The notes under the pieces were generated by a model. It ran no database searches. It was not told the origin of the DNA and worked only from the letters and a program-made list of their open reading frames with translations. This document shows positions 1-55,726 of a stretch of DNA of 64,000 bases, in pieces. Origin of the DNA: Halomonas sp. JB37. GTDB taxonomy: Bacteria > Pseudomonadota > Gammaproteobacteria > Pseudomonadales > Halomonadaceae. The position numbers and the translations under genes are program-made. Numbering within the stretch: position 1 is the stretch's first letter; each line of letters begins with the position of its first letter. Location: contig NZ_NRGW01000001.1 of assembly GCF_002332255.1 (NCBI RefSeq), positions 1,550,001-1,614,000 of the forward strand, in the 5' to 3' direction.

Positions 1-81
1 CAATTCGGGGATGAGAAACTTAAGTGCATGGTGTACTCTCTAAAGAGGTCACCTTTCAAGAGTAGACTCTTTGGCGAGTAT

Positions 82-330
82 ATGGCAAGCGATTTAGCAA
101 AAAGAATTCGTTTAATTAGAGAAGCTGAAACTTCAGGTCGTGCTGAGTTTTCGCAACTTATTGGAATATCTAAAAAAACGATAGAAGGTGTGGAGCAGAC
201 AGGCAGAACACCAAAAGGTGAATTGTTGGAAGCAATATGCCTTCAGTGGCCTGAATATTCATTATGGTTAATGACTGGAAGTGCAGACTGGGATTGTGCT
301 CAGAAAGAACCGATGCAAGATACGATATAA
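82..330 (+). CDS. Small HTH (XRE-like) DNA-binding protein
   Basis: This is a short protein of about 82 residues, or 100 if translation begins at the upstream ATG at 28. A helix-turn-helix pattern follows the start: a charged helix (DLAKRIRLIREAE), then FSQLIGISKKTIEGVEQTGR, which resembles the recognition-helix part of Cro/C1-type domains. The tail (WPEYSLWLMTG) is the kind of C-terminus seen in small phage or island regulators. I prefer the ATG at 82 because the HTH begins right there, although neither start has a strong ribosome site. It is probably a DNA-binding regulator of the AT-rich island; its target is unknown. The base composition is AT-rich, unlike the genes beyond 2.1 kb. Confidence 0.6.
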   Translation: MASDLAKRIRLIREAETSGRAEFSQLIGISKKTIEGVEQTGRTPKGELLEAICLQWPEYSLWLMTGSADWDCAQKEPMQDTI

Positions 331-418
331 AAAGTTGAAAAAGGTTGTTTGAAATAATATTCAACAATATTGTGTAAATTACATTCGTGTTTTTTAGATA
401 GTTAATAGGGGGCGCAAG

Positions 419-1120
419 GTGAGAGTGAATAATGAGAAATTGCCAGTAAATATAGAGCTGGCGGAACTTGAGTTGAGCGTTAATGGAACAATGTTTGTGA
501 AGCTAAAAACGCTAAGCGAACTTGAGGATTTTTGGGAAAAAAATAAAGAACTATTTAAATATGCAGTAGAAGGTGTTGATTTAAATTGTGATCAGACTTT
601 TTTGAATGGTTATGAGTGGGTCTTTGGAAAAACAAAAGAATCAGTAGTGCGCACGTTTATGCGTTGGGATGAAACATCTGTTAAATGCGATTTTTATGAT
701 CAGTCAAAAGAGAATTATAAAGAACATAAGTCTTTTTTTTTAGAAAGAGATAATTATCGTGAAGATATGATGAAGCGTGACACTTGGACAATTGAAGATG
801 AAGAGGAATACCAAGTTGATTGTTTAAAAAAAACACCAGATAGCTACCGAGGATGGTGGAGATTAACAAATTTGCCTAATGGATTGAATTCTGAAGAATG
901 GGTTGATCCATACGCAGAAGATGAAGAGTTGTATGATATAAATATGTCTACTCATGAAGTAGCTCAAAAACTTCAAGTGCAAATTTTCAACAGCTGGATG
1001 GAAAGTGATTGGGGCGAGTTAAGGTTTTATGATCGCAAAAGTATAGAAGAGAAGATCTTTTACTGGAGAAATGAGAAAAATGCAGGTCAAGATTATTATG
1101 GTAGTGAAAATGAGGTGTGA
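419..1120 (+). CDS. Hypothetical acidic protein of the AT-rich island
   Basis: I do not recognise this 233-residue protein. It begins with GTG behind a purine-rich AGGGGGCG. It is rich in Glu, Asp, Trp and Tyr, has no signal peptide and no membrane segment, and so should be a soluble cytoplasmic protein. The middle (residues about 80-150) is highly charged and contains the cluster EDEEEY; the end has WMESDWGELRFYDRKSIEEKI. The AT-rich codon use matches the small HTH gene upstream, not the bulk of the window, which suggests joint acquisition. The convergent gene downstream ends 12 bases away. No function is assigned. Confidence 0.55.
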   Translation: MRVNNEKLPVNIELAELELSVNGTMFVKLKTLSELEDFWEKNKELFKYAVEGVDLNCDQTFLNGYEWVFGKTKESVVRTFMRWDETSVKCDFYDQSKENYKEHKSFFLERDNYREDMMKRDTWTIEDEEEYQVDCLKKTPDSYRGWWRLTNLPNGLNSEEWVDPYAEDEELYDINMSTHEVAQKLQVQIFNSWMESDWGELRFYDRKSIEEKIFYWRNEKNAGQDYYGSENEV

Positions 1121-1132
1121 TCCCCAAATAAG

Positions 1133-1489
1133 TCATTTTGTGGCAGATGTTTTTACAATTGCTTTTGATAAGTTTGATTCTATTTCTTTAATGTTTTTTT
1201 CTATCGTGCTTATAGGTTGTGATAGTTGCATGAATGCTTTTTTGAGATGAAGATAAATCTCACCAGCTCGCTCTTCATTTATGCCGCTTATCATTTTAAA
1301 TGAAATTGATGGATAGAATGGAATGGAGATGTTTTTAAGCTTTTCTGCTAGTTGTGGTTTAGATAAGCTATAGGCTTCTCTGGAATTGTCATTGCACTTT
1401 TTGTGGATATGCGAGCAAATTCTTTCTAAACGATACTCAAGTATGTCATTGGGGACGTTGATGCCTTCTTTTCTTGATATGCTCTTCAT
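1133..1489 (-). CDS. Hypothetical protein, 118 aa
   Basis: An unrecognised small, basic, mostly helical protein. No signal peptide, membrane segment or known motif is visible. The C-terminal third (LKKAFMQLSQPISTIEKNIKEIESN, shown here only as ending in IEKNIKEIESN) looks like an amphipathic helix that could form a coiled coil. It is transcribed towards the 419-1120 gene and nearly touches it. Its AT-rich composition matches the other two genes at the left edge, so all three probably belong to one acquired segment. Confidence 0.5.
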   Translation of the reverse strand: MKSISRKEGINVPNDILEYRLERICSHIHKKCNDNSREAYSLSKPQLAEKLKNISIPFYPSISFKMISGINEERAGEIYLHLKKAFMQLSQPISTIEKNIKEIESNLSKAIVKTSATK

Positions 1490-2116
1490 GAGATTATCTC
1501 TTCGAATTTAAGTGATATATTTTTATCTGCTTATGATTAATCTAGCCCCAAAATAGAATATTTTTACGGAAAGTTCAATAACCAGAAAAATGAAATGTTG
1601 CAAGCTAATTGCTTAGCTAAAAATGCCTGCAGAAATATGGTTTATTAAGCTAAATCAATATTTTTGATTGCCGTAGGTCGCTTTTTTTAAATTCTATACT
1701 CCTACGGCTTTTTCAGGCTCGTGTTTATAACCAGTAAGCTGGTCACGTCAACAAAGAGTCAACTGAAATGTGCGCTAGCCTGCTGTGCTGCGCATTAAAG
1801 TCTTCTTAAATTCATTGGTTTATGATGGGCTATGCCATTGTGTGACGCTTCAAGACGCTCTCATAATCCCTTGGTCGTCCGTTCAAGTCGGACTGGGCCC
1901 ACCATTTCTATACTTGTCTATTTCAAATAGCTGCTCATCTTACGTCCTGTGCTTTACCGCTCATTATTAGCAGCAGCCGCATCCCCTTTTCAGTAACTGC
2001 TAACAGCAGGGCCGCTTGGGCTGTCAACGCTTAAGACCTCTCGCTGATTCCTCTGTTTCAACACTCTTGGCTGTTTATTAACAGGCACCAATGGCGCTCA
2101 AATAGTCAGCTATCTA
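1490..2116. other. Gene-poor stretch between AT-rich island and iron locus
   Basis: No convincing gene is seen in these 627 bases. The left part (to about 1720) is AT-rich like the island; the right part drifts to the composition of the following genes. The only clear structure is an inverted repeat at 1670-1708. A 61-codon open frame at 1785-1970 has no ribosome site and no recognisable features. I could not find a tRNA or an obvious attachment site that would mark an island boundary. Confidence 0.5.
1670..1708. terminator. Inverted repeat, possible terminator
   Basis: GCCGTAGG (1670-1677) and CCTACGGC (1701-1708) are perfect 8-bp inverted arms around a 23-base AT-rich loop, followed on the + strand by TTTTT. 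This could be a weak intrinsic terminator or a remnant transposon or integration end. The long loop makes a terminator role uncertain. Confidence 0.35.
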
Positions 2117-2956
2117 CTATTGGATTGGCGCAAGACCGCTGGCAGGTTGCTTGCGCGGTACGCACACTGGGCTGCCACTTTCGGGGTCGTGGAGCACGCG
2201 TGCCTCTAGGTCAAATACGCGCTTTAGGTTTGCGGCGGTAAAGATCTCGCTGGGCGGGCCGCTGGTGACTATGCGGCCATCACACATCATGACTAGATGG
2301 TCGGCGTAGGCAGCGGCCAGGTTTAGGTCGTGAAGCACTAATAACAGAGTGCGACCATGTTCGTGGGCGAGGCGAGATAGTAGCTCTAGAAGATCGACCT
2401 GCACCTTTAAATCAAGAAAGGTGGTGGGTTCATCGAGCAGAATTAAATCGGTTTTCTGCGCTAGCACCATGGCAATCCAGCAGCGTTGGCGCTGCCCACC
2501 AGAAAGCGCATCCACGTTGCGGTCGGCGAACTCGGTAACGTTGGTGTAAGCCATTGCCTCGCGAATGGCTTCGGCATCCTGCTTAGTGTTCTGGCGCCAC
2601 AGCGTCTGATGGGGAAAACGCCCCATACCAACCAACTGTTTAACGGTTAGCCCTTCAGGGGCGATGGGCCCTTGGGGAAGTATGCCAAGCCGTTTCGCTA
2701 CGTCTCGCGTATTGCTGTGGTGAATGTCCTTACCATCTAAATACACGTGGCCGGCGCTGGGCTTAAGCGTTCGTGCAAGCGTTTTTAAAAGCGTCGATTT
2801 GCCACTGCCATTAGGCCCTAAAAGCACCGTTAACTTGCCTTGCGCTATGGCGATATCCACGCCTTTTAATACGGGGCGAGTCTCGTAGCCAGCCGATAAG
2901 GCTTTGCCGGTTAATCGGGGCTGTTGGTCTGAAAGGTCGGTCACAGGTGGGCTCAT
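2117..2956 (-). CDS. Fe(III)-siderophore ABC transporter ATP-binding protein (FecE/FepC type)
   Basis: This is the cytoplasmic ATPase that powers siderophore import through a FecCD permease pair. Walker A is GPNGSGKS at residues 47-54, the ABC signature LSGGQRQR at 151-158, and Walker B LILLDEP at 171-177, with the switch His in VLHDLNLA; the order and length (279 aa) are standard for the family. The open frame extends to a GTG at 3016, but the ATG at 2956 gives the family-like N-terminus; neither has a strong ribosome site. It is divergent from the TonB receptor and 2.4 kb from the permeases, which lie beyond that receptor. Because it shares the upstream region holding the Fur-like box, Fur repression is likely. 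Confidence 0.9.
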   Translation of the reverse strand: MSPPVTDLSDQQPRLTGKALSAGYETRPVLKGVDIAIAQGKLTVLLGPNGSGKSTLLKTLARTLKPSAGHVYLDGKDIHHSNTRDVAKRLGILPQGPIAPEGLTVKQLVGMGRFPHQTLWRQNTKQDAEAIREAMAYTNVTEFADRNVDALSGGQRQRCWIAMVLAQKTDLILLDEPTTFLDLKVQVDLLELLSRLAHEHGRTLLLVLHDLNLAAAYADHLVMMCDGRIVTSGPPSEIFTAANLKRVFDLEARVLHDPESGSPVCVPRKQPASGLAPIQ

Positions 2957-3143
2957 TGCATGGCCTAGGCAGGCAGCACCGTAAGGTAAAACATTCTCAT
3001 TTTCAATATTTAACACTTTACGTTAGTGGATGCTTACTAGGTAGTGCCATCGTCTACAGAGTAGCGAATCATAAACGCAAGCAAGATGATTGCAAAAAAG
3101 TGAACGGTGCGTTCAGGTTTGGTAGACCTGAATACGTTTATAT

Positions 3144-3162
3144 GCATAATACAATCATTATC
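3144..3162 (+). promoter_or_regulatory. Fur box
   Basis: The 19-mer GCATAATACAATCATTATC has a right half (AATCATTATC) identical to the Fur consensus GATAATGATAATCATTATC; its left half is degenerate. It lies 57 bases before the receptor ATG and inside the divergent region shared with the ATPase gene, where iron-dependent repression of both would be expected. Fur binding is inferred from sequence only. Confidence 0.65.
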
Positions 3163-3219
3163 ATTTGTATATGTATTACGCTTTCTCTCGATCGTTCACT
3201 CCAAAGGTATAAAAAGAAC

Positions 3220-5361
3220 ATGCGCATTAAGAATCGTCCAGTGTTTTGGCCAACGGTAACACTCGCTGGTTTGGTGGCTATGAGTCAGGCCCACGCGCAG
3301 AATACGGCTGTATCAGATTCACAACGTAGCCGTGGTGACGCCGATCAAACAATGGTCGTGACCGCCTCACGGACTAATGCCACGAAAGACGATTCTCCCC
3401 AAACGGTGCGCATTATCACTAAAGAGGAAATCGACCAGCAGCTGCAGATTTCCAGCGATTCATCGCAAGTATTAAGCAACCTGCTGCCGTCATATTCGCC
3501 TAGCCGCCAGAAGATGAGTGGCAGCGGCGAGACGCTACGCGGACGCACCCCGCTGATTTTGATTGACGGTATTCCCCAGTCTAATCCGCTACGTCCCACA
3601 GGGCGTGAAGCACATACCATCGATTTTTCCATGGTTGAGCAAATTGAGGTCATTCAAGGTGCCAACGCCACCAATGGCGTTGGGGCGGCTGGCGGCGTGA
3701 TTAACCTGATTACCAAGCGCCCGGAGCCAGGCTCTTACAACCAGCATGCAGAAATTAGGGTGACAACCCCTACCAGCGAGCTGGATAGCGACACGCTGAG
3801 CTATGAAACGAATTATGGCGTGAGTGGTAATACCGGCGATATCGATTATCTCTTCTCGGCGAGCGTCGAGAGGCAGGGGCTTTTCCTCGACGGTAGCGGT
3901 GATGCTGTCGGCGTCGATAACACGCAGGGCGATCTGATGGACTCTCGCTCCTATGACTTTTTGGGCAAGGTGGCCTACTGGATCGATGATAATCAGCGCC
4001 TGCAATTGACCCTGAATCACTTTGATATTGAAGGGCAAAATAATTACGTCAGCGTGACGGGGGATCGTGCCAACGGTGTGGTGACCACCTCTGAGCGTGG
4101 AACCCCAGAGGGCGATGTGCCTTATAACCGCGTGTGGACGACGGGGCTGAGTTACGATAACTACGATCTCGCTGGGATGCGCTTAAGTGCTCAGGTGTTC
4201 TACCAGGACTATGAGGCACTGTTTGGCGCGACCAACTCCGGGACCTTCCAAGACCCTGCTATTGCGCCAGTGGGTAGTTTTTATGATCAAACGTTGGCGA
4301 CGACTAGCAAATTTGGTACCAAAGTATCGCTGACTAAGGATGATCTATTTAGCGACCGGCTCACGCTGACCGGCGGCTTTGATACACTGTTTGATGAAAC
4401 GGAGCAGTACCTGTATCAATCTGACCGTACCTATGTGCCGTCGACAGAGTACACCGATCTTTCGCCTTTCATTCAAGCCGAGTTTAGGCCCATCGATTCG
4501 CTGCTTTTATCCGCTGGCGCCCGTTATGAATATGCCAAGCTAGATATCGGTGGCTACCAGACCGTTGCGGCTAACAATGGCGTTGAGGTCGAAGGTGGTG
4601 CCCCCAGCTTCAATGAAACGCTGTATAACGCCGGGGTTGTGTGGAAACCCGTTGATAACTGGAGCCTCTTCGCCAACTACTCCGAAGGGTTTGTGATCCC
4701 AGATGTAGGGCGTGCACTGCGTGGTATTTCGACACCCGGACAGTCGGTCAATAGCATTGATAACCTTCGCCCCATCGTCACCGATAATGTTGAGACCGGC
4801 GTACGTTTTGAGAACGGGCGCTTAGCGGCTGAGCTAAGCTATTACGAATCGTCCTCTGAGTTCGGCAGCCGCCTGACGGAAATCGATGATGTCTTCTTTT
4901 TGAGCCGCGAGGAAACCGAGATTAAAGGGCTGGAAGCCTCGGTGGATTATCAATTTACCGAGCAGCATTCCGGCCGCGTGGCCTACTCACGTATGGAAGG
5001 GCGTTTTGACAGTAATGAGGACGGTAGCCTAGATTCCCAACTGTCAGGGCTTGATGTGTCGCCGGATCGCCTGGTCGCCAGCTGGTCAGCGAATTGGACG
5101 GATGAACTCTCGACGTTTGTACAGGCAAACTATGCCTTTGATGAAACCTTTGACGAGGAAGATCGTGAGTTTGATGGCTATCTGTTAATGGATGCGGCGC
5201 TGGGATATAAACTGCCGGTCGGGCAGGTCAGCGTGGGCGTTGCCAACCTGTTAGACGAGCAGTACGTCACCTACTATTCGCAAAGCGCGCTGGTTAACGA
5301 CGAGCGTTATTTTGCAGGGCGTGGCAGAACCGTTACCTTCGGCTATCGTTTGGATTTCTAA
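3220..5361 (+). CDS. TonB-dependent siderophore receptor
   Basis: This is an outer-membrane receptor that imports a ferric siderophore with TonB energy. The start at 3220 is chosen because it gives a clean signal peptide ending AHA-Q (residues 24-27); the longer open frame back to 2947 would run through the Fur box. A TonB box (QTMVVTAS, about 43-50) is followed by the plug domain (ILIDGIPQ, VEQIEVIQGANATNGVGAAGG) and then a beta-barrel of alternating aromatic strands ending in the terminal Phe (GYRLDF). Total length is 713 aa, normal for the family. The FecB-like binding protein nearby hints at a carboxylate or citrate-type siderophore, but this is a guess. The stop codon overlaps the stop of the convergent permease gene. 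Confidence 0.9.
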   Translation: MRIKNRPVFWPTVTLAGLVAMSQAHAQNTAVSDSQRSRGDADQTMVVTASRTNATKDDSPQTVRIITKEEIDQQLQISSDSSQVLSNLLPSYSPSRQKMSGSGETLRGRTPLILIDGIPQSNPLRPTGREAHTIDFSMVEQIEVIQGANATNGVGAAGGVINLITKRPEPGSYNQHAEIRVTTPTSELDSDTLSYETNYGVSGNTGDIDYLFSASVERQGLFLDGSGDAVGVDNTQGDLMDSRSYDFLGKVAYWIDDNQRLQLTLNHFDIEGQNNYVSVTGDRANGVVTTSERGTPEGDVPYNRVWTTGLSYDNYDLAGMRLSAQVFYQDYEALFGATNSGTFQDPAIAPVGSFYDQTLATTSKFGTKVSLTKDDLFSDRLTLTGGFDTLFDETEQYLYQSDRTYVPSTEYTDLSPFIQAEFRPIDSLLLSAGARYEYAKLDIGGYQTVAANNGVEVEGGAPSFNETLYNAGVVWKPVDNWSLFANYSEGFVIPDVGRALRGISTPGQSVNSIDNLRPIVTDNVETGVRFENGRLAAELSYYESSSEFGSRLTEIDDVFFLSREETEIKGLEASVDYQFTEQHSGRVAYSRMEGRFDSNEDGSLDSQLSGLDVSPDRLVASWSANWTDELSTFVQANYAFDETFDEEDREFDGYLLMDAALGYKLPVGQVSVGVANLLDEQYVTYYSQSALVNDERYFAGRGRTVTFGYRLDF

Positions 5362-45141: not shown

Positions 45142-46911
45142 ATGTCGCTGGATGCATGGATTGCGGTAGCAGTGGTGGTTACGATCTTTCCGCTCATGGC
45201 TTTTTCACGCCTCGGGCCCGACATTATTTTGCTGGGTGCGGTTATCGTGCTGATGACGCTGGGAGTCATTGATCCTCAGCAGGCGTTAGGCGGCTTTTCC
45301 AATAGCGGTTTATTCACCGTCGCGTTTATGTACGTGCTGGTGGCTAGCATTCGTGAAACCGGTGGGATTGATCTCATTATTCGCTATGTGTTGGGGCGCC
45401 CTGCGAGCGAAAGAGGCGCCCTGACGCGCCTGCTGTTACCCGTGGCGATGCTCAGTGGTTTTGTCAATAATACCCCGGTAGTGGCTACCTATATCCCCGC
45501 GGTGATGAGCTGGAGCCGGCGGCTGCGTTTATCTCCACAGCGGCTGCTCATGCCGCTCAGCTTTGCTTCTATCCTGGGTGGCACCATTACCCTGTTCGGC
45601 ACCAGTACTAACTTGGTCGTGCATGGACTGTTACTTGACCGTTATCCCGAGCGCGGCATGGGCCTTTTAGATCTCGCTTGGGTCGGGATTCCCGTGGCCA
45701 TAGCGGGCCTAGTCTATCTGATTGCACTAGGGCCTCGGCTGCTACCGGCGCGTTCCGGGGTGGCCAGTGCGTTTGCCAATCCGCGTGAGTTCACGATTGA
45801 AATGGAGGTAGACCCAGCTGGTGTACTGGTCGACCGTAGCGTTGAGGAAGCCGGGCTGCGCCATCTACAGGAGCTGTTCCTGGTGGAGATTGAGCGTGCA
45901 GGCAATATTGTCACCGTTGTCGGGCCTGGGGAGCAGCTTAAAGGTGGCGACCGTCTAGTGTTTGCCGGAACCAGCGATGCAGCGGTAGAGCTCCAGCAAA
46001 TCCGTGGCCTCATTCCTTCTCGAGACGACACTTCCAGTTTAGAGAAAGAGTTTAAAGAGCGCCGTTTGGTCGAGGCCGTTGTGTCTGACCAGTGCCAGTT
46101 TATTGGCCAGCGTATTCGCGATGGACGGTTTAGAACGCTGTATGGCGCAGCGGTGCTGGCGATATGCCGTGGCGGTGAGCGGGTAAAAGGGAATTTAGGT
46201 CAAGTGCGCTTGCAGTCAGCGGATGTGCTGCTGTTAGAAGCACGCCCACCGTTTATTGAACGTCATCGTCAGTCCAGAGACTTCTTGCTGATAAGCGAGC
46301 TTAATGGGTCAGCACGGCCGATCCATGAAAAGGCGCCGCTTGCGTGGGGGATCTTGCTGGGTGCCGTGGTGCTTGCAGCGCTGGGCGTGCTTAGCATGCT
46401 CAATGCCGCCATGTTAGGGGCTGCGCTAGTGCTACTCACCGGCTGTTGTTCGGTGGGGGCGGCTAAGCGAGGCCTTGATACCCAGGTGCTGCTAACTATT
46501 GCCGCCTCGTTTGGCGTGGGGGCCGCGCTACAAAGCTCCGGTGCGGCGGAAGTGATTGCCGGTGGTTTGCTGGCGCTAGTGGCGGGTAATCCTCTACTCT
46601 TGCTGATAGGGACCTACTGTGTCGTAGCGCTTCTCACAGAGCTAGTCACTAACAACGCTGCGGCAGTGATTATTTTCCCGGTCGTGATGAGCGCTGCAGA
46701 AAGTTTAGGCGTTAGTCCGATGCCTTACGTCGTGGCCGTTATGTTTGCTGCCTCGGCCAGCTTCTTAACGCCTATCGGCTATCAAACGAACTTGATGGTG
46801 TATGGCCCTGGCGGCTATCGGGTGAGTGACTTTCTGCGCTTAGGCAGTGGTTTAAATGTGTTAACCGGTGCGATAGCGCTGGTGTTGATTCCTCAGGTAT
46901 GGCCTTTTTAA
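45142..46911 (+). CDS. SLC13-family permease with paired TrkA-C domains
   Basis: A 589-residue membrane protein with about eleven segments. The N-terminal half contains FVNNTPVVATYIPAVM and GTITLFGTSTNLVVHGLLL; the C-terminal half has LTNNAAAVIIFPV-type and FLTPIGYQTNLMVYGPGGY motifs. Two RCK/TrkA-C domains lie between (about residues 210-370). This is the architecture of putative divalent-anion:Na+ or sulfate-type permeases. The ATG at 45142 with GGGGTGGG before it is preferred over a TTG at 45118. The anion transported is unknown. Confidence 0.85.
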   Translation: MSLDAWIAVAVVVTIFPLMAFSRLGPDIILLGAVIVLMTLGVIDPQQALGGFSNSGLFTVAFMYVLVASIRETGGIDLIIRYVLGRPASERGALTRLLLPVAMLSGFVNNTPVVATYIPAVMSWSRRLRLSPQRLLMPLSFASILGGTITLFGTSTNLVVHGLLLDRYPERGMGLLDLAWVGIPVAIAGLVYLIALGPRLLPARSGVASAFANPREFTIEMEVDPAGVLVDRSVEEAGLRHLQELFLVEIERAGNIVTVVGPGEQLKGGDRLVFAGTSDAAVELQQIRGLIPSRDDTSSLEKEFKERRLVEAVVSDQCQFIGQRIRDGRFRTLYGAAVLAICRGGERVKGNLGQVRLQSADVLLLEARPPFIERHRQSRDFLLISELNGSARPIHEKAPLAWGILLGAVVLAALGVLSMLNAAMLGAALVLLTGCCSVGAAKRGLDTQVLLTIAASFGVGAALQSSGAAEVIAGGLLALVAGNPLLLLIGTYCVVALLTELVTNNAAAVIIFPVVMSAAESLGVSPMPYVVAVMFAASASFLTPIGYQTNLMVYGPGGYRVSDFLRLGSGLNVLTGAIALVLIPQVWPF

Positions 46912-47013
46912 AATAGCTTTTGGCGGTGTCTTGGCTCCTTTAGGCGCGCCACTACTCGCGGTTAGCACTGGTTTGCGCTAGGGTTGCTTTTTTTGCACAA
47001 GGAATGAGAGTCG

Positions 47014-47679
47014 ATGACTGATCCTGGCGAACTGATTATTGAGCCGAAAAACGGTCAACCTGCCGATGCGTGTGTCTTTATTATTCACGGTTTAGGTGCT
47101 GACGGGCACGATTTTGAGCCGCTAGTGCCCGCGTTAGCACTGCATAAAAACTCGCAGGTTCGTTTTATCATGCCCCATGCGCCGCGCCTGGCCGTGACGA
47201 TTAATGGCGGCATGGTGATGCCCGCGTGGTATGACATTCTCGCCATGGATTTGGGGCGTCGGGTGGATAAAAGCCAGCTCAAAAAATCGGCTGAGCGATT
47301 ACAGGGGCTGATGCAAGAGCAAATTGATCAAGGAATCGATAGTCGGCGCATTATTGTGGCGGGTTTTTCGCAAGGCGGCGCCGTTGCCTATGAAGCCGCG
47401 CTCACTTTTCCCGCGCCCTTGGGCGGCTTGTTAGCGATGTCGACCTATTTTGCCACTGCCGACAATATCGTTCTGAGCGATGCAAATCGACAAATGCCTA
47501 TTGAAGTACAGCACGGTAACTTTGATCCTATCGTGCCCGAAAGCCTGGGGCGCAGCGGCGTAGACCGCCTGAAAGAGATGGGTTACACGGTCAATTACCG
47601 CCAGTACCCAATGGCCCACGCGCTCTGTCCACAGCAGGTTAATGACATCGGCAAATGGCTGGGCACACGTCTAAGCTAG
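47014..47679 (+). CDS. Carboxylesterase/phospholipase (alpha/beta hydrolase)
   Basis: A 221-residue alpha/beta hydrolase of the carboxylesterase II type. The oxyanion region is FIIHGLGADGHDF (23-33). The triad is visible as Ser 119 in GFSQGG, Asp 171 in HGNFDPIVP and His 202 in PMAHAL. It should hydrolyse short esters or acyl thioesters in the cytoplasm, since no signal peptide is present. It stands alone, 102 bases after the SLC13 permease. Confidence 0.92.
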   Translation: MTDPGELIIEPKNGQPADACVFIIHGLGADGHDFEPLVPALALHKNSQVRFIMPHAPRLAVTINGGMVMPAWYDILAMDLGRRVDKSQLKKSAERLQGLMQEQIDQGIDSRRIIVAGFSQGGAVAYEAALTFPAPLGGLLAMSTYFATADNIVLSDANRQMPIEVQHGNFDPIVPESLGRSGVDRLKEMGYTVNYRQYPMAHALCPQQVNDIGKWLGTRLS

Positions 47680-47735
47680 CATTCGCCTAAACTCAGCGCC
47701 TATTCGTGCCCGATGCAAGGACGTAGCGAAAACGA

Positions 47736-48416
47736 ATGATAGCTTCCATTGATGTGGTAGAAGTAGCGCTAGCGCTGTGCCTTACGGGGACGGCGCTGGT
47801 GTGCTTGTTTGATCGCCATCTTCTGCGCGCCTGCCGCTTCTTTGTGGCTTTTGCTATCGCTATGGCATTGGCATGGTGGCAACTAGGTGCCATTTGGTTA
47901 GCAAGCGCAGAGCTACTGCTAGGAGCAGTGCTGACAGGGCTCTGCTGTTTTTATGCTCTTGGCCACGTTGGGTCTAGCGGCTCATCTGTTTTAGCGCACG
48001 ATCATTTTAGCGAGCCGTGGACACGAATTGCCATGCGAGTGGTGTTAGCGCTGGTTTGGTTTGTCATGGTCGCTGTGGCGATTGGCTATGTACTAACCGA
48101 TATGCAGCACTCGCCTGCTGAACATCCGCTTTTGTTGGCTGGGGTGGTGATTGCTGCCAGCGCCATGGCCTCCTTTGCACTACACCGTCATCTGTTAAGA
48201 CGTTTGCTGGCGTTTAACCTACTCGGTTCTGGCGTATTTATGTTGCTTGCCGGCGTGGCGGGTACTACTCCGACTGCCCAGGTTTTAATCAGCGTGGGTC
48301 TGCTAGTGGCGGCGCTTGGGTCGATGCTCGGTGTCTTGCTGATAAGACAGCTTTTACATTTGCAAGGCGTTAATGCCTTGGACCACGACAGCGGGCCCAA
48401 AGAGAGTGCGACATGA
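47736..48416 (+). CDS. Fused MbhD (DUF4040)-MrpC/NuoK-like membrane subunit
   Basis: A 226-residue membrane protein. Residues about 8-72 resemble the DUF4040/MbhD segment normally found at the end of MrpA, and residues about 135-215 (ASAMASFALHRHLLRRLLAFNLLGSGVFML) the MrpC/NuoK fold. The short linker has one or two extra segments that could be MbhE-like. Fusing these two parts is unusual. It is the first of four genes with 4-bp overlaps, so it is a core part of the Mrp-like antiporter complex. Confidence 0.7.
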   Translation: MIASIDVVEVALALCLTGTALVCLFDRHLLRACRFFVAFAIAMALAWWQLGAIWLASAELLLGAVLTGLCCFYALGHVGSSGSSVLAHDHFSEPWTRIAMRVVLALVWFVMVAVAIGYVLTDMQHSPAEHPLLLAGVVIAASAMASFALHRHLLRRLLAFNLLGSGVFMLLAGVAGTTPTAQVLISVGLLVAALGSMLGVLLIRQLLHLQGVNALDHDSGPKESAT

Positions 48417-49903
48417 TCTGGCGCTTTGGTCTCTTCGATAGCACCTTTACGCCGCTTGCCACAACCCACTGGGCGCTGTTGACGGTGCTTTGCCTACCGC
48501 TGCTAATGGGGCTGTTGGCGGCATTATTCCCCCCTAAGCGAGCATGGCCCGTGCTACTTGCCAGCGCGCCGATAGTGGCGGCTGGTTTAATGCTGCTGTT
48601 CGCCTTTAACGATGCGGGGCTACTGCGCTGGCAGTGGGCGGTGGCGGATATCCAACTGTCGCTGCGTTTGAACGGGCTCAGCGTACTGCTGCTATTAACG
48701 ACCCAGTGGATTGGCGTTGCCGCAGCGCTATATACGCCGGGCTATTTGCGCTTAAGCGACCCCGGCCCGATGGCACGCTGGCTTTGGCCGCTGATGGGGA
48801 CGTTGATAAGCGCGCTTTCATTAATGTGGCTAGCCACTGATCTACTCACCCTCTATGTTGCGTTGGAGCTGATGGGCTTGGCGGCGGTCGGCATGCTGCT
48901 GCTATCGGGGAAAGCGGCTGCCCTTAAGGCGGGGATGCGCTATTTGCTGCTAGCGCTGGTGGGGTCATTGACTTATCTGCTGGGCGTTGCTTTGATTCTA
49001 GGTCACTGGGGCCGGTTAGATTTACAGGGTTTAGCCGAGATAATCGAGCCCGGCCCCGTGGCATGGTTCGCGGCGGCGCTAGTGGGCGCGGGACTTGCGT
49101 TGAAAGCTGCGCTGTTTCCGCTGCATGCCTGGCTGTCGCCTGTCCACGAAAATGCCTGGACGCCGGTGAGCGCACTGCATGCCGGGCTGGTGATCAAGGC
49201 TTCGCTTTTTATGCTGGTGCTGCTATGGAGCATTTTACTGCCAGATGCTTTCTATGCACCGCGTGTTATTGCCTGGCTAGGCATGCTGGCGATTGTATGG
49301 GGTGGCCTATTAGCATGGCGAACCGACTCACTGAAAACGTTGGTCGCCTCATCAACCGTCGCGCAGCTGGGTTATTTGATGGTTATTTTCCCGCTGCTAC
49401 TGGGAGCAGACGTTGCCCCGCTGCCACGCGCCTTGGCGTGGGAAGGCTTTTGGTTACAGCTAATGGGGCACGCTTTTGCTAAGGCTGCGATGTTTATGGC
49501 TGCCGGAAACCTGATTCTGGCGACCGGTGAAAGTACCTTAAAAGGCCTTGCAGGCACTAGCCGGCGTTTGCCGCTTTCGCTGTTAGTGTTTGGCATTGCT
49601 TCCATCACGTTAATGGGCCTGCCACCCAGCGCTGGTTTTACCGCAAAATGGCTGCTCTTTGAGGCCATGATTATCACGCAGCAGTGGTGGGCGGTGGCGG
49701 CACTGCTTGTCGGTACGTTACTAACTGCAGCCTATATATTCCGCATGTTTCGCTATTCGTTTGACGAGTCGGCACCTCGCCAGCGTTACCAGCCTCTTGC
49801 GCCGGGGATGGACTTAATCGCCCTGACGCTGGCGCTAGCCGCTTTCGCACTGGGGCTTTTCGCGCATTATCCATTGGGATTGATGCATGGAGGTGGCGTA
49901 TGA
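48413..49903 (+). CDS. Proton-pumping antiporter-like subunit (NuoL/M/MrpD family)
   Basis: A 496-residue membrane protein of the Proton_antipo_M family with about 14 segments. Conserved features are the Glu in YVALELMGLAAVG, then GLALKAALFPLHAWLSP with the key Lys, HENAWTPVSALHAGLVIKAS with a second Lys, and GLPPSAGFTAKW. These residues belong to the ion-conducting half channels. It overlaps both neighbours by 4 bp. It is one of three such subunits of the complex. Confidence 0.82.
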   Translation: MIWRFGLFDSTFTPLATTHWALLTVLCLPLLMGLLAALFPPKRAWPVLLASAPIVAAGLMLLFAFNDAGLLRWQWAVADIQLSLRLNGLSVLLLLTTQWIGVAAALYTPGYLRLSDPGPMARWLWPLMGTLISALSLMWLATDLLTLYVALELMGLAAVGMLLLSGKAAALKAGMRYLLLALVGSLTYLLGVALILGHWGRLDLQGLAEIIEPGPVAWFAAALVGAGLALKAALFPLHAWLSPVHENAWTPVSALHAGLVIKASLFMLVLLWSILLPDAFYAPRVIAWLGMLAIVWGGLLAWRTDSLKTLVASSTVAQLGYLMVIFPLLLGADVAPLPRALAWEGFWLQLMGHAFAKAAMFMAAGNLILATGESTLKGLAGTSRRLPLSLLVFGIASITLMGLPPSAGFTAKWLLFEAMIITQQWWAVAALLVGTLLTAAYIFRMFRYSFDESAPRQRYQPLAPGMDLIALTLALAAFALGLFAHYPLGLMHGGGV

Positions 49904-51405
49904 CTGCTGAGTGGCTACCCATCACCGCGTTGGCTATCGCGCTGTTAGTCACCGGGATTATTTTTGTGCTGCCGGAAGAGTCCCATCGTCTACGCACCAC
50001 GATTAATCTGCTGGCGGCGGTCACCAATATTGTTCTGGTCACCTTGATGGTCAGGCGAGTAGCCGCTGGGTATGAAGATATTTTCAGCTTCCAGGTTGTC
50101 GGCGGTGTTGATTTCGTATTGCGCACGGATGCGCTTGGGGTGATGTTCGCCGGGTTATCGTCACTGCTTTGGCTGTGTACGACGATTTACGCGATTGGTT
50201 ACTTGGAAGGGTCTGCCAACAGGAAGCGCTTTTTTGGCTTTTTTAGCCTCTGCGTGGCCAGCACCATCGGCATTGCGCTGGCTGATAACTTGTTTACCTT
50301 TTTGATTTTCTACGAAATGTTGACGCTCTCCACGTACCCGCTAGTGGTGCACCGGGGTACGGAGCAAGCGCTCAACGCGGGCCGCATTTATTTGCGCTAT
50401 ACCCTCACGGCTGGCGTGGTGCTGCTCCTGGGCGCGGTGCTGCTTTATAGCCTGACGGGGGACCAGTCGTTTTCTTCCGAAGCAGGCTTGGGCGATTATT
50501 TAAACGATAACCGTGGCTTGCTAACGCTAATATTTGCGCTGCTGGTGGGCGGGTTTGCGGTTAAGGCTGCTATGGTGCCGCTGCACGGCTGGCTACCAAG
50601 AGCAATGGTTGCGCCAGCGCCGGTGAGTGCGCTGCTGCACGCCGTCGCAGTCGTGAAGGCTGGCGCGTTTGGCATCTTGCGAGTGGTTTATGATCTTTAT
50701 GGCATTGAGCTTAGCGTGGAGCTTGGTGTCATTACCGCGCTGGCGGTGGCGGCGTCTATTACGATTATTTATGGGTCGTTGAGAGCCATCGCGCAAGAGG
50801 AGCTGAAACCACGCTTGGCGTTTTCTACCATCAGCCAAGTTTCCTACGTTATTCTCGGCATCGGCTTATTTGGGCCTTTCGGCACTATTGGCGCGTTAGC
50901 GCACTTGCTGCACCAGGGTTTAATGAAGGTCACGTTATTCTTCTGTGCGGGTAACTATGCAGAAGAGCTGGGGATTCACCGCATTGACGAGATGGACGGT
51001 GCCGGTAAGCGCATGCCGTTAACCAGTATTGCATTCACGATCGGCGCGCTAGGCATGATCGGCCTCCCGCCCTTTGCTGGTTTTATTACCAAATGGTACC
51101 TCGGTATCGGCGCGATCCAGGCTGAAATGTACTGGGTGGTGGCCGTGTTGGTGATCAGCAGCACGCTCAACGCGATGTATTTTTTACCGATTGTGCATCG
51201 CCTGTGGTTCCGTTTAGGGCCTTCTCATGGCAAAGGCAGTTGGCCCGACGAACAGCGTTTAGGCCGCTTTGAAACCCATGGCTGGTTGCTTTTACCGATG
51301 GTGTTTACCGCGCTGGTGAGCCTCGCTGCTGGTTTGTTGGCAGGCTTGCCGTTTAGTCCGCTGGACTGGGCAACCCGCGTCGCAAACGGGGAGTACTTGC
51401 TATGA
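49900..51405 (+). CDS. Monovalent cation/H+ antiporter subunit D-like protein (MrpD family)
   Basis: A 501-residue homologue of MrpD/NuoN. The conserved Glu is in FYEMLTLSTYPLVVHRG, and the Lys residues in GGFAVKAAMVPLHGWLP and HAVAVVKAGAFGI; IGLPPFAGFITKWYLG follows. It is nearer to MrpD than the neighbours are. It overlaps the previous gene and the next by 4 bp each. A role in Na+/H+ or K+/H+ exchange is likely, but ion specificity is not shown. Confidence 0.85.
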   Translation: MTAEWLPITALAIALLVTGIIFVLPEESHRLRTTINLLAAVTNIVLVTLMVRRVAAGYEDIFSFQVVGGVDFVLRTDALGVMFAGLSSLLWLCTTIYAIGYLEGSANRKRFFGFFSLCVASTIGIALADNLFTFLIFYEMLTLSTYPLVVHRGTEQALNAGRIYLRYTLTAGVVLLLGAVLLYSLTGDQSFSSEAGLGDYLNDNRGLLTLIFALLVGGFAVKAAMVPLHGWLPRAMVAPAPVSALLHAVAVVKAGAFGILRVVYDLYGIELSVELGVITALAVAASITIIYGSLRAIAQEELKPRLAFSTISQVSYVILGIGLFGPFGTIGALAHLLHQGLMKVTLFFCAGNYAEELGIHRIDEMDGAGKRMPLTSIAFTIGALGMIGLPPFAGFITKWYLGIGAIQAEMYWVVAVLVISSTLNAMYFLPIVHRLWFRLGPSHGKGSWPDEQRLGRFETHGWLLLPMVFTALVSLAAGLLAGLPFSPLDWATRVANGEYLL

Positions 51406-53174
51406 TGACGCTGCTGCTGGCGCTGTCACTGCTATGGCCGCTGTGCGTCGCCGGGTGTTCAGCTTGGCACGCCTATCGCACGCCAAGCTCACGGCGCGAC
51501 TATTTTTCCCTGCTGTGGGTGAGCGCTGCTTGGCCTGCCTTACTGTTAGCGTACGGTGGCGAAGCGCAGTGGACTATCGATGCCTGGATGCTGGGCGGGG
51601 AGTGGGCGTTAAACTCGCTAAGCAGACCATGGCTGGCGTTTACCGCGCTGCTGTGGAGTTTAGCAGCCGTGCACGCGCGAGGTTACTTTGCGGCGGAGCA
51701 TAAGCAGGCTCAGGCAGGCGATCAAGATGTTCAGCGCCGCCTGCAACGTTTGTCACTGCTGTGGCCAATGACCTTATTAGGCAACGTGTTATTGGTTGTC
51801 GCCCAGGATATTGCCAGCTTCTATTTAGGCTTTGCGCTGATGACGTTTGCCGCTTATGCCCTCGTAGTGCATACCGGTACACAAGAGGCTCGGCTGGGCG
51901 CGCGGGTATATTTAATACTGGCCGTGGTCGGCGAGGGCCTTATTTTAGCCGGCTTTTTGTGGGCCGCCGGTGAGGCCGACACGCTAACGCTGCAAGGTGT
52001 GCGTGAGGGTATTTTGATCGCAGAGCAGGGCGCATGGATGGCCGCCTTGCTGTGCTTAGGCTTCGGGGTAAAAGCCGGCGTTATCGGATTGCACGTATGG
52101 CTGCCGTTGGCGCATCCGGTAGCGCCCGCACCGGCCAGTGCGGTGCTCAGCGGGGTGATGATTAAAGCAGGCCTGCTCGGCTGGATAAGCGTGCTGCCGC
52201 TGGGTCATGACGAGGTACCTGGTGCCTTAGCCCAGTTTGGCCACGTTATGCTGATAGCCGGGTTGGCAGCCGCCTTTGCCGCTGCGCTTTACGGTGTATT
52301 TCAGCGCCATCCAAAAGCCGTGCTAGCGTATTCAAGTATTAGTCAAATGGGCATGATGACCGCGCTGGTGGCAATGGGGCTAGTGGCGCCGGATGTTTGG
52401 CCACTGCTGTGGCCGGGCTTGGTGCTGTTTGCCGCTCATCACGCGCTGGCCAAAGGTAGTCTATTTATGGGCACCAGTATTAGTGAGCACCTGCCACGCT
52501 GGCCGTTGCCTCTGGTGTGGGCGTTGATGGCGCTGCCGGGCATATCGCTGGCTGGTGCTATTGGCGCAGGTATGATCAGCAAATGGGGCGTCAAAAGCCC
52601 GCTTTATGAGATGCATCATGAATCGTTAATTAAGCTGCTGAGTTGGGCCGCCGTTGGCACCGCGGCGCTAGTCAGTGTTGCGCTTTGGCGCCAGTGGCAG
52701 CAGCGCGAGCAAGGCGGCAGCAATCCGTGGCAGTGGGGTGCTTGGCTTGCAGGCATTATGGCGGCGCTCGTAACGCCGCTGTGGTTACCGCTACCTGCGG
52801 GCAGTATTGAAATGGCGCCTCTTAAAGAGTGGCTGGGGATTATATGGCCATTTCCGGCAGGTGTTGTGCTCGCTGTATTGGGCTGGCTATTAACCCGCCC
52901 CTTTAAGGGTAAATCGCCCCCCGCAGGTGATCTATGGTGGCTGTATGCCTTTATAGCCAACGCTGCGCTAGTGCCTATACGTTTGATAGGCCACGCCTGT
53001 GGCAAGATTAAAGCGGCCAGCGTGGCGGCCGCGCAAAGTATGGAAAAGAGATTCATGGTTTATTTATCACGCGGATTGGCCGGGGAGAGCTGGTTGCGGC
53101 ATCATTCTAGTGGTTTGATGATGGTGCTTGCCGCAGTGCTTGCGGCGCTACTTATGTGGGAAGGCCAAGGATGA
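51402..53174 (+). CDS. Proton-pumping antiporter-like subunit (NuoL/HyfB family)
   Basis: A 590-residue NuoL-like protein, the third antiporter-type subunit here. The channel residues are in GFGVKAGVIGLHVWLPLAHPV and SGVMIKAGLLGWISV, and LPGISLAGAIGAGMISKWG is the PF-like motif. The C-terminal ~150 residues are an extra membrane and amphipathic region, as in NuoL/HyfB. It lacks the C-terminal DUF4040 of true MrpA; that part appears instead in the first gene of the block. Confidence 0.8.
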   Translation: MMTLLLALSLLWPLCVAGCSAWHAYRTPSSRRDYFSLLWVSAAWPALLLAYGGEAQWTIDAWMLGGEWALNSLSRPWLAFTALLWSLAAVHARGYFAAEHKQAQAGDQDVQRRLQRLSLLWPMTLLGNVLLVVAQDIASFYLGFALMTFAAYALVVHTGTQEARLGARVYLILAVVGEGLILAGFLWAAGEADTLTLQGVREGILIAEQGAWMAALLCLGFGVKAGVIGLHVWLPLAHPVAPAPASAVLSGVMIKAGLLGWISVLPLGHDEVPGALAQFGHVMLIAGLAAAFAAALYGVFQRHPKAVLAYSSISQMGMMTALVAMGLVAPDVWPLLWPGLVLFAAHHALAKGSLFMGTSISEHLPRWPLPLVWALMALPGISLAGAIGAGMISKWGVKSPLYEMHHESLIKLLSWAAVGTAALVSVALWRQWQQREQGGSNPWQWGAWLAGIMAALVTPLWLPLPAGSIEMAPLKEWLGIIWPFPAGVVLAVLGWLLTRPFKGKSPPAGDLWWLYAFIANAALVPIRLIGHACGKIKAASVAAAQSMEKRFMVYLSRGLAGESWLRHHSSGLMMVLAAVLAALLMWEGQG

Positions 53175-53210
53175 TGAGAATGCCGCAACCGTGTTGGGCT
53201 TTGACGCGCT

Positions 53211-54185
53211 ATGAGTAATCTTGAGCGTGGCCGGCATGCCGAGGTGCCGGGCGAGATTCCCGCTCGTGGCTGGCATGATATTGTCTGGCGAGTAGTGCGC
53301 GCCGCGCGGCGGGACCGCATTACTATGCTGGCGGCCGGTGTCGCTTTTTACGCATTGCTCGCATTGTTTCCCACTATTGCCGCGGTTATTTCGCTCTGGG
53401 GGCTGCTGTTTGACCCCTATGAGGCGGGCCAGCAGCTGTACGAAATTAGCCGTTTTATGCCACCCGATGCGGCCAAGTTAATTGATCAGCAGGCCCAAAA
53501 GGTAGTGGAAAGTGCTGAATCAAGTAACGTGATGGCCACGCTAGTCGGTCTATTGATTGCCATGTTTGTTGCCTCAAAAAGCGTGGCGGTATTAGTGATT
53601 GGATTAAACGTGGTGTATGGGGAAACGGAAAAACGCTCACTATTTCATCGCAGTACGGTGTTGGTGTCGCTGACGTTTGGTTTGATTATTATGACCTTGG
53701 TATCACTGGGTTTTATCGCCATCGTACCCATGCTGGTTGATGCGCTAGCCATTGATCCACCCCTGGATAAGCTGCTGAAATGGTTACGTTGGCCTGCGCT
53801 CTTAGTGCTAATGAGCGTGCTGATCGCGTTACTTTATCGTTTCGCACCCTATCGGCGTTCAGCGCAGTGGCGGTGGTTAAGCTATGGAACGTTACTCGCC
53901 ACTTTTATGTGGCTATTAGGTTCTGGCGGGCTTTCGCTGTACGTACGCTATTTCGCAACCTTTAGTGAGCTCTATGGATCACTGGGGGCCGTCATAGCGT
54001 TAATGATATGGTTTTGGCTCTCTGCCTTCGTGGTGCTGTTTGGCGCAGAAGTGAACAGTGAAATGGAGCGTCAGACTTACCGCGATACAACTGTCGGTTA
54101 TCCGCGCCCTCTTGGCGAACGCGAGGCGTTTGCCGCAGATACTATTGGCAGCCCTCAGCCGTGGCGGGCATCAGACGCTGAGTAG
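53211..54185 (+). CDS. YihY/BrkB-family inner-membrane protein
   Basis: A 324-residue protein with about six membrane segments and the family opening RDRITMLAAGVAFYALLALFP. Other hallmarks are SKSVAVLVIGLNVVYGE, then YRFAPYRRSAQWRW and YGSLGAVIALMIWFWLSAFVVLFGAEVN near the end. This is the group formerly called BrkB or RNase BN; function is unresolved, with suggestions of transport or virulence roles. It starts 36 bases after the antiporter block and may be co-transcribed. Confidence 0.9.
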   Translation: MSNLERGRHAEVPGEIPARGWHDIVWRVVRAARRDRITMLAAGVAFYALLALFPTIAAVISLWGLLFDPYEAGQQLYEISRFMPPDAAKLIDQQAQKVVESAESSNVMATLVGLLIAMFVASKSVAVLVIGLNVVYGETEKRSLFHRSTVLVSLTFGLIIMTLVSLGFIAIVPMLVDALAIDPPLDKLLKWLRWPALLVLMSVLIALLYRFAPYRRSAQWRWLSYGTLLATFMWLLGSGGLSLYVRYFATFSELYGSLGAVIALMIWFWLSAFVVLFGAEVNSEMERQTYRDTTVGYPRPLGEREAFAADTIGSPQPWRASDAE

Positions 54186-54263
54186 TCGCTTAAGCCCTGT
54201 CGCTGAAGTACTTGTGTGCTCCGCTTCTTGGATCAGCTTTCCTGGTTAAACTTACTTGAATAA

Positions 54264-54298
54264 ATCATCCCTCACCCGGTCCCCGCGTGAGGGATGAT
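54264..54298. terminator. Hairpin between convergent genes
   Basis: ATCATCCCTCAC (54264-54275) and GTGAGGGATGAT (54287-54298) are 12-bp perfect arms with an 11-base loop, sitting between the BrkB and PhoH gene ends. There is no strong T-run on either side, so its termination strength is uncertain. Confidence 0.55.
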
Positions 54299-54316
54299 GC
54301 TTAACAATCGCTAGTC

Positions 54317-55726
54317 TTATAACAGCTCTTCAGCGGCAAGTGCTAAGCGAGAACGTTCAACACTTTTCAAGGTGATATGGCCGGCGTGAGGCCAGTCTCG
54401 AAAACGCTCAACGACGGCCGCCATGCCGCAGGTATTGGCGGTTAGGTAGGGGGTGTCGATCTGACCAACGTTGCCCAGGCAGACAATCTTGGTATTGCGC
54501 CCCGCCCGTGTCACCAGCGATTTTAGCTGTTTGGGGGTAAAGTTTTGCGCCTCATCAATGATTAGAAACGTGTCATTTAAGGTGCGGCCGCGCATAAAGC
54601 TTGGCGAGCGAATTTGTACGCGTGAGCCAATCAGTTGGCGAGTGGCGCCATTATCCCAGCTGGACTCTCCCTCCTCGTTGCGCAGCAGGTTATCCATGTT
54701 GTCGTGAAAAGCGCCCATCCACGGTGACATTTTCTCCTCTTCGGTACCGGGTAGAAAACCGATATCTTCCCCCATAGGGATCGGCGCGCGGGTAAATACA
54801 ATGCGCTCAAATAGCTTGGCATCCAACGTTTGTTGAAAGGCGGCGGCCAGCGTCATAAACGTCTTACCGGTACCGGCGTTACCGGCCACCGTCACCAGGT
54901 CAATATCCGGGTCCATCAGCAAGTTTAAGGTGAAGTTTTGCCGGCTGTCATGTGCATGAACGCCCCACACGCCGGCATGATGGCGGTAGTTGGTCAGTAG
55001 CTGAAGGCGGGCTGTGGAGGGGCCCAGTTCGCGAACGATCGCCTCGAACTCTGCGCCATTCTCACTATCCGACACCAGCATGCCAACGTGCCAATGCCGG
55101 GGCATCACGCCATTGAGCTGATAGAACGTGTGATGACCAACGCGCTCGACGGTGACATCGACATTGAGGCCTTCCCATAGCGTGGCGCCATCTTGCCCTG
55201 CTGAGGCATAAACCTGTGCGCCTTCAATCATGGCATCGCTATCAGAGAATGCGCGGTCGTTTAGATAATCCTCAACCGGTACCTTTAGCGCGGCGGCTTT
55301 AACGCGCAGGTTGATATCTTTGGTGATCAGAATCACCGAGGCATCGGGGCGTTCATCGCGCAGGCGGCAGGTCTCCGCCAATATGCGGTTATCGGGGCTG
55401 TCATCAATGGCGTCGAGGAGTTTTAAATCGTTGTAGCATAAAAAGTGCAGGCGACCTGATTCGCCGCTAATTCGGGGGATTGGAATGCCGAGCTGAATTT
55501 CATCAAAGGTGACTTGGCTAGTAAGGTCAGAAAGCGTACGGCTAATTTGGCGGGCCGTGCGGGCGATTTCACGAATACCGTTTTTGTGCTTATCCAGTTC
55601 CTCCAGAACCGTCATCGGGATAACAACATCGTGCTCATCGAAGTGATAGAGCGCGGCAGGATCATGAATGAGGACATTAGTGTCCAGCACGTACAGCCGA
55701 GTGGCTTTCTTATCGAGTCGTACCAT
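54317..55726 (-). CDS. PhoH-family ATPase with N-terminal PIN domain
   Basis: A 469-residue PhoH2-type protein. The PIN ribonuclease domain starts with YVLDTNVLIHDPAALYHF and continues with VIPMTVLEELDKHKNG. The C-terminal ATPase has Walker A GNAGTGKT and Walker B FLIIDEAQNFTPKQLK. PhoH2 proteins couple RNA unwinding and cleavage. The ATG at 55726, with AAGGAG 11 bases upstream, is chosen over the GTG at 55738. It is a single gene with no antitoxin-like partner in front. Confidence 0.93.
   Translation of the reverse strand: MVRLDKKATRLYVLDTNVLIHDPAALYHFDEHDVVIPMTVLEELDKHKNGIREIARTARQISRTLSDLTSQVTFDEIQLGIPIPRISGESGRLHFLCYNDLKLLDAIDDSPDNRILAETCRLRDERPDASVILITKDINLRVKAAALKVPVEDYLNDRAFSDSDAMIEGAQVYASAGQDGATLWEGLNVDVTVERVGHHTFYQLNGVMPRHWHVGMLVSDSENGAEFEAIVRELGPSTARLQLLTNYRHHAGVWGVHAHDSRQNFTLNLLMDPDIDLVTVAGNAGTGKTFMTLAAAFQQTLDAKLFERIVFTRAPIPMGEDIGFLPGTEEEKMSPWMGAFHDNMDNLLRNEEGESSWDNGATRQLIGSRVQIRSPSFMRGRTLNDTFLIIDEAQNFTPKQLKSLVTRAGRNTKIVCLGNVGQIDTPYLTANTCGMAAVVERFRDWPHAGHITLKSVERSRLALAAEELL

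Follow-up and report, generated by a model that had tools for sequence, protein, structure and literature searches.

A reduced, Mrp-related four-gene set in Halomonas as a candidate minimal cation/H+ exchanger

Results

A four-gene set derived from an 8-gene Mrp-type cluster by loss

Four overlapping genes of Halomonas sp. JB37, at positions 47736-53174 (+ strand) of a 64,000-nucleotide stretch (contig NZ_NRGW01000001.1, positions 1,550,001 to 1,614,000; hereafter the window), encode a fusion of DUF4040 with an MrpC/NuoK-like part (AC) and three antiporter-like subunits (D1, D2 and D3). The set derives by loss from an 8-gene Mrp-type cluster and, tentatively, we read it as a possible minimal secondary cation/H+ exchanger with a shortened cation route. 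An earlier description made from the letters of the window alone (the original prediction) had reported a 4-bp overlap between successive genes and three NuoL/M/N-type subunits, and both statements were borne out, as each of AC, D1 and D2 shares 4 bp with the next gene and the Pfam family Proton_antipo_M was found in D1 (E 2.9e-44), D2 (E 2.5e-61) and D3 (E 4.1e-28). The four genes are as follows.

AC, 47736..48416, + strand: 226 amino acids; DUF4040/MbhD + MrpC/NuoK-like fusion (translation, Pfam, BLAST, profiles, structure model)
D1, 48413..49903, + strand: 496 amino acids; MrpD/NuoN-M-like (Pfam, NCBIfam, residue conservation)
D2, 49900..51405, + strand: 501 amino acids; MrpD/NuoM-like, the best conserved of the four (Pfam, NCBIfam, tree)
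D3, 51402..53174, + strand: 590 amino acids; NuoL/HyfB/MrpA-N-like (Pfam, NCBIfam, structure model)

In plasmid records, an 8-gene cluster E-F-G-[DUF4040+MnhB]-C-D1-D2-D3 is annotated in Rhodobacteraceae SC52, Rhizobium rosettiformans and Aminobacter, and the four window proteins match the proteins of this cluster in the same order; identity between D2 proteins was 52-56% in four clusters (including these three) and 44% in L014. DUF4040 and MnhB are separate genes in haloarchaeal clusters (Haloterrigena, Halomontanus). We searched 60 fetched stretches and L010-L016 with profiles built in this analysis. E, F, G, DUF4040, MnhB, C, D1, D2 and D3 were all present in 12 stretches (L113, L114 and L118-L127; the D3 match of L127 was weak, at 22 bits), with DUF4040 and MnhB sharing a frame in 5 of them and encoded apart in the other 7; L115 was cut by a contig end.

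The DUF4040-MrpC fusion occurred in 41 stretches, namely 40 of the 60 other carriers and L016 (39 stretches of ~14.6 kb, one of 5.8 kb cut by a contig end and one of 17.5 kb), and was encoded in a single frame in every one, collinear with the 8-gene cluster, as expected from the earlier claim that DUF4040 is joined to the NuoK-like part. D1-D2-D3 lay behind AC in 39/40 fetched neighbourhoods and in L016; the exception was L107, where the contig ends, and in L016 D3 is broken near its end, as are several neighbouring genes. None of MrpE, F, G or MnhB was detected by the profiles in any of the 41 fusion stretches (0/41) or in 80 further loci that partly overlap them. The earlier claim that no MrpE, F or G homologue accompanies the set thus extends to the other carriers, and missing subunits fused or adjacent to it, which would have spoken against a new arrangement, were searched for in the fusion stretches and not found.

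Because the gene order is that of the 8-gene cluster minus E, F, G and MnhB, "reduced" fits the set better than "rearranged". The original prediction had used both "rearranged" and "minimal"; the former does not survive the comparison, and the latter does, with the addition that the minimal unit is conserved, transferred and deleted as a block. Phylogeny and profile searches, which had been proposed as a check, identified Mrp-type relatives. In a D2 tree of 46 rows (17 Halomonadaceae fusions as a subset, 7 from Chromatiaceae, 18 from 8-gene clusters and 4 outgroup), all 24 fusion rows formed one clade (100/100) nested inside the 8-gene rows, with very long outgroup branches and weak support (86/55) where this clade connects to the closest 8-gene sister rows.

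Other Mrp variants were seen among the same stretches. L010 (Rubrobacter radiotolerans plasmid 1) has the order E-F-G-AB-D3-D1-D2, AB being DUF4040+MnhB, with MrpC neither annotated nor found by the profiles used. A Halomonadaceae variant (L116, L117, L131 and L132) consists of E-F-G-[DUF4040+MnhB]-C and one frame of ~940-1040 residues that matches D1 and D3; no D2 match was obtained in these four with the profiles.

AC joins a truncated MrpA C-domain to MrpC

AC comprises a DUF4040/MbhD region (MrpA C-domain, NuoJ-like) at residues 1-122 and an MrpC/NuoK-like region at ~125-211, with seven predicted helices. Residues 16-77 matched MbhD/DUF4040 in Pfam (E 3.6e-5; 24.3 bits, short of the Pfam cut-off of 27.2). 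The MrpC/NuoK half had no Pfam match at E 0.001, and was recognised by BLAST against MrpC of the 8-gene clusters (E 7.5e-9, in a small reference protein set) and, weakly, by profile comparison with MbhG (E 0.051); MrpC is thus present solely as the C-terminal half of AC. The structure model likewise had seven helices (predicted local distance difference test score (pLDDT) 80.7, predicted template modelling score 0.76). In VIA-align, residues 1-126 resembled NuoJ-type chains (Z up to 8.5) and residues 125-211 NuoK-type chains (Z up to 7.5); taken alone, this likeness lends weak support to a J/K identity, because unrelated helical proteins reach Z 7.0-7.9 as well. Together, the Pfam, BLAST, MbhG and structural matches agree with the DUF4040-NuoK fusion originally described. 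No Foldseek match to the AC model reached E 0.001, a phmmer search of the PDB with AC by itself returned nothing at E 1, and neither AC nor the neighbouring YihY protein had a match in PHROGs.

Profile comparison aligned AC 7-133 with AB 4-133 (E 3e-15), and the match stopped just before an R-x-x-D-T-x-x-E segment that is present in 14/14 AB proteins and aligns with D792 and E796 of A. flavithermus MrpA, two of the three MrpA carboxylates that PMC7419157 terms essential in that species. Among the fusions, the pattern D[TS]xxE occurred in 3/41 AC proteins (for example in the loop DTFNE of L074) and R-x-x-D-T in 1/41. Judged by the end point of the AC-AB match, AC retains MrpA C-domain helices 17-20 and then runs straight into MrpC: the last helix and two of the three essential carboxylates are gone, and the fourth AC helix (95-122) is the counterpart of the penultimate MrpA C-domain helix. 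The earlier wording "no full MrpB", insofar as it implied a partial MnhB, was therefore mistaken, as AC holds no MnhB part. An in-frame deletion of ~200 codons in the AB-C gene pair would yield AC. The fusions have diverged to ~40% identity in AC. Glu59, at the MbhD Glu position, is invariant (41/41). The MrpC histidines were considered as a sign of lost Na+ binding and rejected, because they are equally missing from the 8-gene MrpCs and from the Mrp of the window genome itself.

The three antiporter-like subunits are intact

Transmembrane helix (TMH) numbers in D1-D3 were assigned by comparison with known members. The residues diagnostic of antiporter subunits (a Glu in TMH5 and Lys in TMH7, 8 and 12) were present in D1 and D2 in 41/41 stretches, and the invariant positions comprised Glu152, Lys231, His256, Lys262, Lys357 and Lys412 of D1 and Glu139, Lys222, His247, Lys253, Lys343 and Lys398 of D2 (each 41/41). 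The TMH8 His of D1 distinguishes the fusions (41/41) from the 8-gene D1 proteins (0/18). D3 keeps the Lys set, and its usual TMH5 Glu position, read by eye, is without an acidic residue. Among the NCBIfam matches listed, none of which exceeded the curated cut-off, D1 and D2 were closest to putative MrpD-type proteins and D3 to hydrogenase-4 subunit B.

The D3 model (pLDDT 89.2, lower at 57-83 in blocks 501-590) contains a predicted lateral helix at 512-567 followed by a closing membrane helix at 569-589. Its best structural matches were E. coli NuoL chains (Z ~39), with an MrpA chain next behind (Z 38.2), and superposition on E. coli NuoL gave a root mean square deviation of ~9 A over the whole length and 3 A over residues 2-531. 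Given these matches, the predicted lateral helix of D3 would be of the NuoL/MrpA type.

The set is conserved, transferred and deleted as a block

Matches to AC were found in 69/201 family genomes, 61 of them over both halves (40/50 genomes of the same genus and 21 in genus g20), and 60 of these 61 had no stop inside the match. Full-length AC was detected in 4/293 genomes of the order and 2/369 of the class (searched with a strict cut-off of E 1e-15), all of the window's own genus. The remaining order- and class-level matches were partial; some touch both AC halves and lie in frames of ~330-360 residues, the size of DUF4040+MnhB, as far as these were inspected. A scan of named genomes confirmed 228 relatives, of which 80 loci were kept for examination: the fusion was in one frame in 78 and D1, D2 and D3 were found in 77, with 3 loci cut by contig ends. 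L187 and L192 have the look of poor assemblies, with breaks over their whole length that extend to the neighbouring genes, and D2 or D3 is split in L156, L167 and L173. The genera that host the fusion are mostly halophiles.

Seven of the 80 loci belong to Chromatiaceae (Lamprobacter, Thiohalocapsa and Halochromatium; two of the seven from metagenome-assembled genomes), where the set has other neighbours. In the D2 tree the Chromatiaceae sequences (100/100) nest within the Halomonadaceae fusions (95/95 branch), and because of this nesting we conclude that Chromatiaceae acquired the four-gene set by horizontal transfer, as a unit.

Relative to the nearest relative, dN/dS was 0.175 for AC, 0.066 for D1, 0.047 for D2 and 0.114 for D3 (0.030-0.045 for three neighbours), and the set is under purifying selection. 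AC was absent from 10/50 genomes of the same genus. The site next to PhoH was fetched in 14/19 fusion-less genomes (nine of the same genus; the other five had no long PhoH match), and it held no Mrp parts in these 14 save in L137; rearrangement was seen in L140 and L141, the latter being a short stretch. In L137 (G168), at ~2480-2920, the first ~30 residues of AC join the last ~85 of D3, in which there is a further frame change, so the middle of the block was apparently lost there in one piece.

Neighbouring genes and the rest of the genome

The CitMHS/TrkA_C and esterase genes upstream and the YihY gene downstream are separated by gaps of 102, 56 and 36 bp. These three were considered as operon partners and rejected; they are absent or displaced in other carriers. 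In 18 g20 stretches the esterase gene was either 0.4-3.2 kb away or not detected and YihY was not detected; L092, from the window's genus, has none of the three. A convergent PhoH gene was near-constant (40/41 stretches, the remaining one cut by a contig end). In the Chromatiaceae loci L214, L215, L220, L224 and L228, open reading frames judged by eye included no common partner gene, and no neighbour was constant between the carrier groups. Promoter and terminator matches in 46800-54400 were not above those in shuffled sequence.

The absence of a hydrogenase or dehydrogenase module, as originally described, agrees with the five nearest neighbours scanned, among which none was recognised, and with the window genome (3.81 Mb, 2 contigs), in which NuoH (PF00146) had no match, the control matching 11/14 known genomes. 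DabA (PF10070) likewise had no match there (control, 2/14 known genomes). E, F, G and MnhB each had exactly 3 matches in this genome, all within three ordinary Mrp operons. These operons lie on C1 at ~660-666 kb, 1787-1793 kb and 2831-2837 kb (L128-L130), with MrpA and MnhB fused in two of them and MnhB separate in one. Elsewhere in the window, positions 1-4000 have a G+C fraction of 0.443, compared with 0.498-0.574 in the remaining 4-kb steps, and are possibly a foreign stretch.

Discussion

We infer that the four proteins form one complex and move protons. AC-D1-D2-D3 would constitute one membrane complex with parts equivalent to the NuoJ-K-N-M-L membrane arm; the set arose when an 8-gene cluster lost MrpE, F and G and when the last MrpA C-domain helix and MnhB were lost and the remainder was fused to MrpC. 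In the proposed exchanger, H+ would pass inward through the D subunits, this flow would be coupled at the AC/D1 interface (Glu59 of AC, Glu152/Lys231 of D1), a monovalent cation would leave over the shortened route, and the role would be salt or pH homeostasis alongside three full Mrp systems. PMC9568556 proposes that Na+ enters from the cytosol where MrpC meets MrpA-C, by a route whose end is an MrpA-C Glu, and this proposal supports an exchanger because AC keeps the MrpC/MrpA-C part.

Several observations weigh against an exchanger. Glu59 of AC, as read from alignments, is one helical turn off the Mrp Glu706 position; an MrpC motif of the [QH]A-x-x-x-T[GA]I type, which sits before and in the third MrpC helix (nine fusions aligned), occurs in 24/25 separate MrpC proteins and in 0/41 fusions; and AC evolves faster than D1, D2, D3 and the neighbour genes. 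Judging by the title of a paper cited in Mrp structure work, single deletions of mrpA to mrpG reportedly affect activity. Furthermore, the lost parts (MrpE, F, G and B, and MrpA Glu780 of B. pseudofirmus) are those assigned to Na+ in the models of PMC7419157 and PMC9568556, and a single MrpF mutation is described as abolishing function (PMC7419157).

A different but rather unlikely explanation is that the set is a free-standing, complex-I-like proton arm, made up of a J/K fusion and three antiporter-like subunits, which has given up the Mrp cation half and performs no cation exchange, conducting or pumping H+ under the control of a driver or gate not yet recognised. Such a partner would be encoded elsewhere and would dock where MrpF/G/B or NuoH would sit; this version, too, we consider doubtful. 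It would account for D1-D3 having stayed intact when the parts of the cation route and the final helix of the MrpA C-domain were lost, for the correspondence of the parts to the complex I antiporter arm, including a NuoL-like D3 with its lateral helix, and for the fusion-specific TMH8 His of D1, and isolated complex I antiporter modules are described as conducting protons (PMC11496545). However, no partner gene is constant, given that in other carriers the esterase, CitMHS and YihY genes are missing or lie elsewhere and that the Chromatiaceae neighbours differ (five of seven loci, by eye), and spread as a unit speaks against the need for a specific distant partner. We favour the minimal cation/H+ exchanger, since the unit can be transferred with no fixed partner and the AC/D1 coupling site is kept.

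It is improbable that the ordinary Mrp operons of the same cell supply MrpE, F, G (and MnhB) to complete the complex. MrpE was indeed found in 67/67 other fusion-bearing genomes searched (1 to 6 genes each), and the window genome has three full sets, but this co-occurrence says little because Mrp is common in these bacteria; moreover, MnhB fused to MrpA, as in two of the three operons here, could hardly be lent, and AC is without the last MrpA C-domain helix. It is very improbable that the set handles bicarbonate/CO2 in the manner of DabAB/MpsAB or forms some other H+-coupled solute system: single NuoL-like proteins can serve systems of this type, but DabAB has one NuoL-like subunit and no DUF4040/MrpC, and the genome is without DabA. 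That the set is a decaying, functionless relic of an 8-gene Mrp operon is hardly credible, for despite the four lost subunits, the mere scrap in L137 and the same-genus genomes without AC, 61/201 family genomes keep both AC halves (60 without a stop), dN/dS is 0.05-0.18, the charged residues are invariant and the set has been transferred horizontally.

Where Na+ crosses Mrp is disputed between published models (PMC9568556). Here a salt-loving host keeps the proton-moving parts without most of those assigned to sodium transport, and this amounts to a natural test of mechanism: evolution took out most of the disputed Mrp half and kept the rest, while AC diverged and the genes moved to another family. 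If the four proteins exchange cations, there would be a route for which none of MrpB, E, F and G is required; if not, they would represent a new kind of proton module. The presence or absence of exchange would separate the published Na+ models and, either way, the set would offer, in natural and minimal form, a system in which to study the coupling problem that complex I also poses.

No earlier description of the four-gene arrangement, which would have spoken against its novelty, was found in the open-access literature, in a search that covered few subscription papers. The closest known system is the 8-gene Mrp variant, with which the order DUF4040, C, D1, D2, D3 is shared, whereas E, F, G, MnhB, the last MrpA C-domain helix and a separate MrpC are confined to that variant, DUF4040 and MrpC being one protein in the four-gene set. 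Mrp (Mnh/Pha) systems of groups 1 and 2 (CPA3) have MrpC, MrpD-like and MrpA C-domain elements in common with the set, but groups 1 and 2 contain two antiporter-like subunits (the MrpA N-domain and MrpD), whereas the set has three and no B, E, F or G. Group 3 Mrp (for example, cyanobacterial and Microbacterium clusters) resembles the set in its irregular order and extra MrpD copies but, in the description given in PMC5703873, has each subunit, unlike the set. Since it lacks B, E, F and G as well as a portion of the MrpA C-domain, the set should not be filed as an Mrp antiporter proper, although it may still work like one. Mbh/Mbs of Thermococcales share the MbhD-type DUF4040 Glu position and a weak MbhG match, but the set has no hydrogenase or sulfane reductase among its five nearest neighbours and no MrpE/F/G/B equivalents. 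Like the complex I membrane arm (NuoJ, K, L, M and N), the four-gene set has one J-like, one K-like and three antiporter-like parts and one lateral helix; it differs in belonging to a genome without NuoH and in having Mrp-type clusters as its close relatives.

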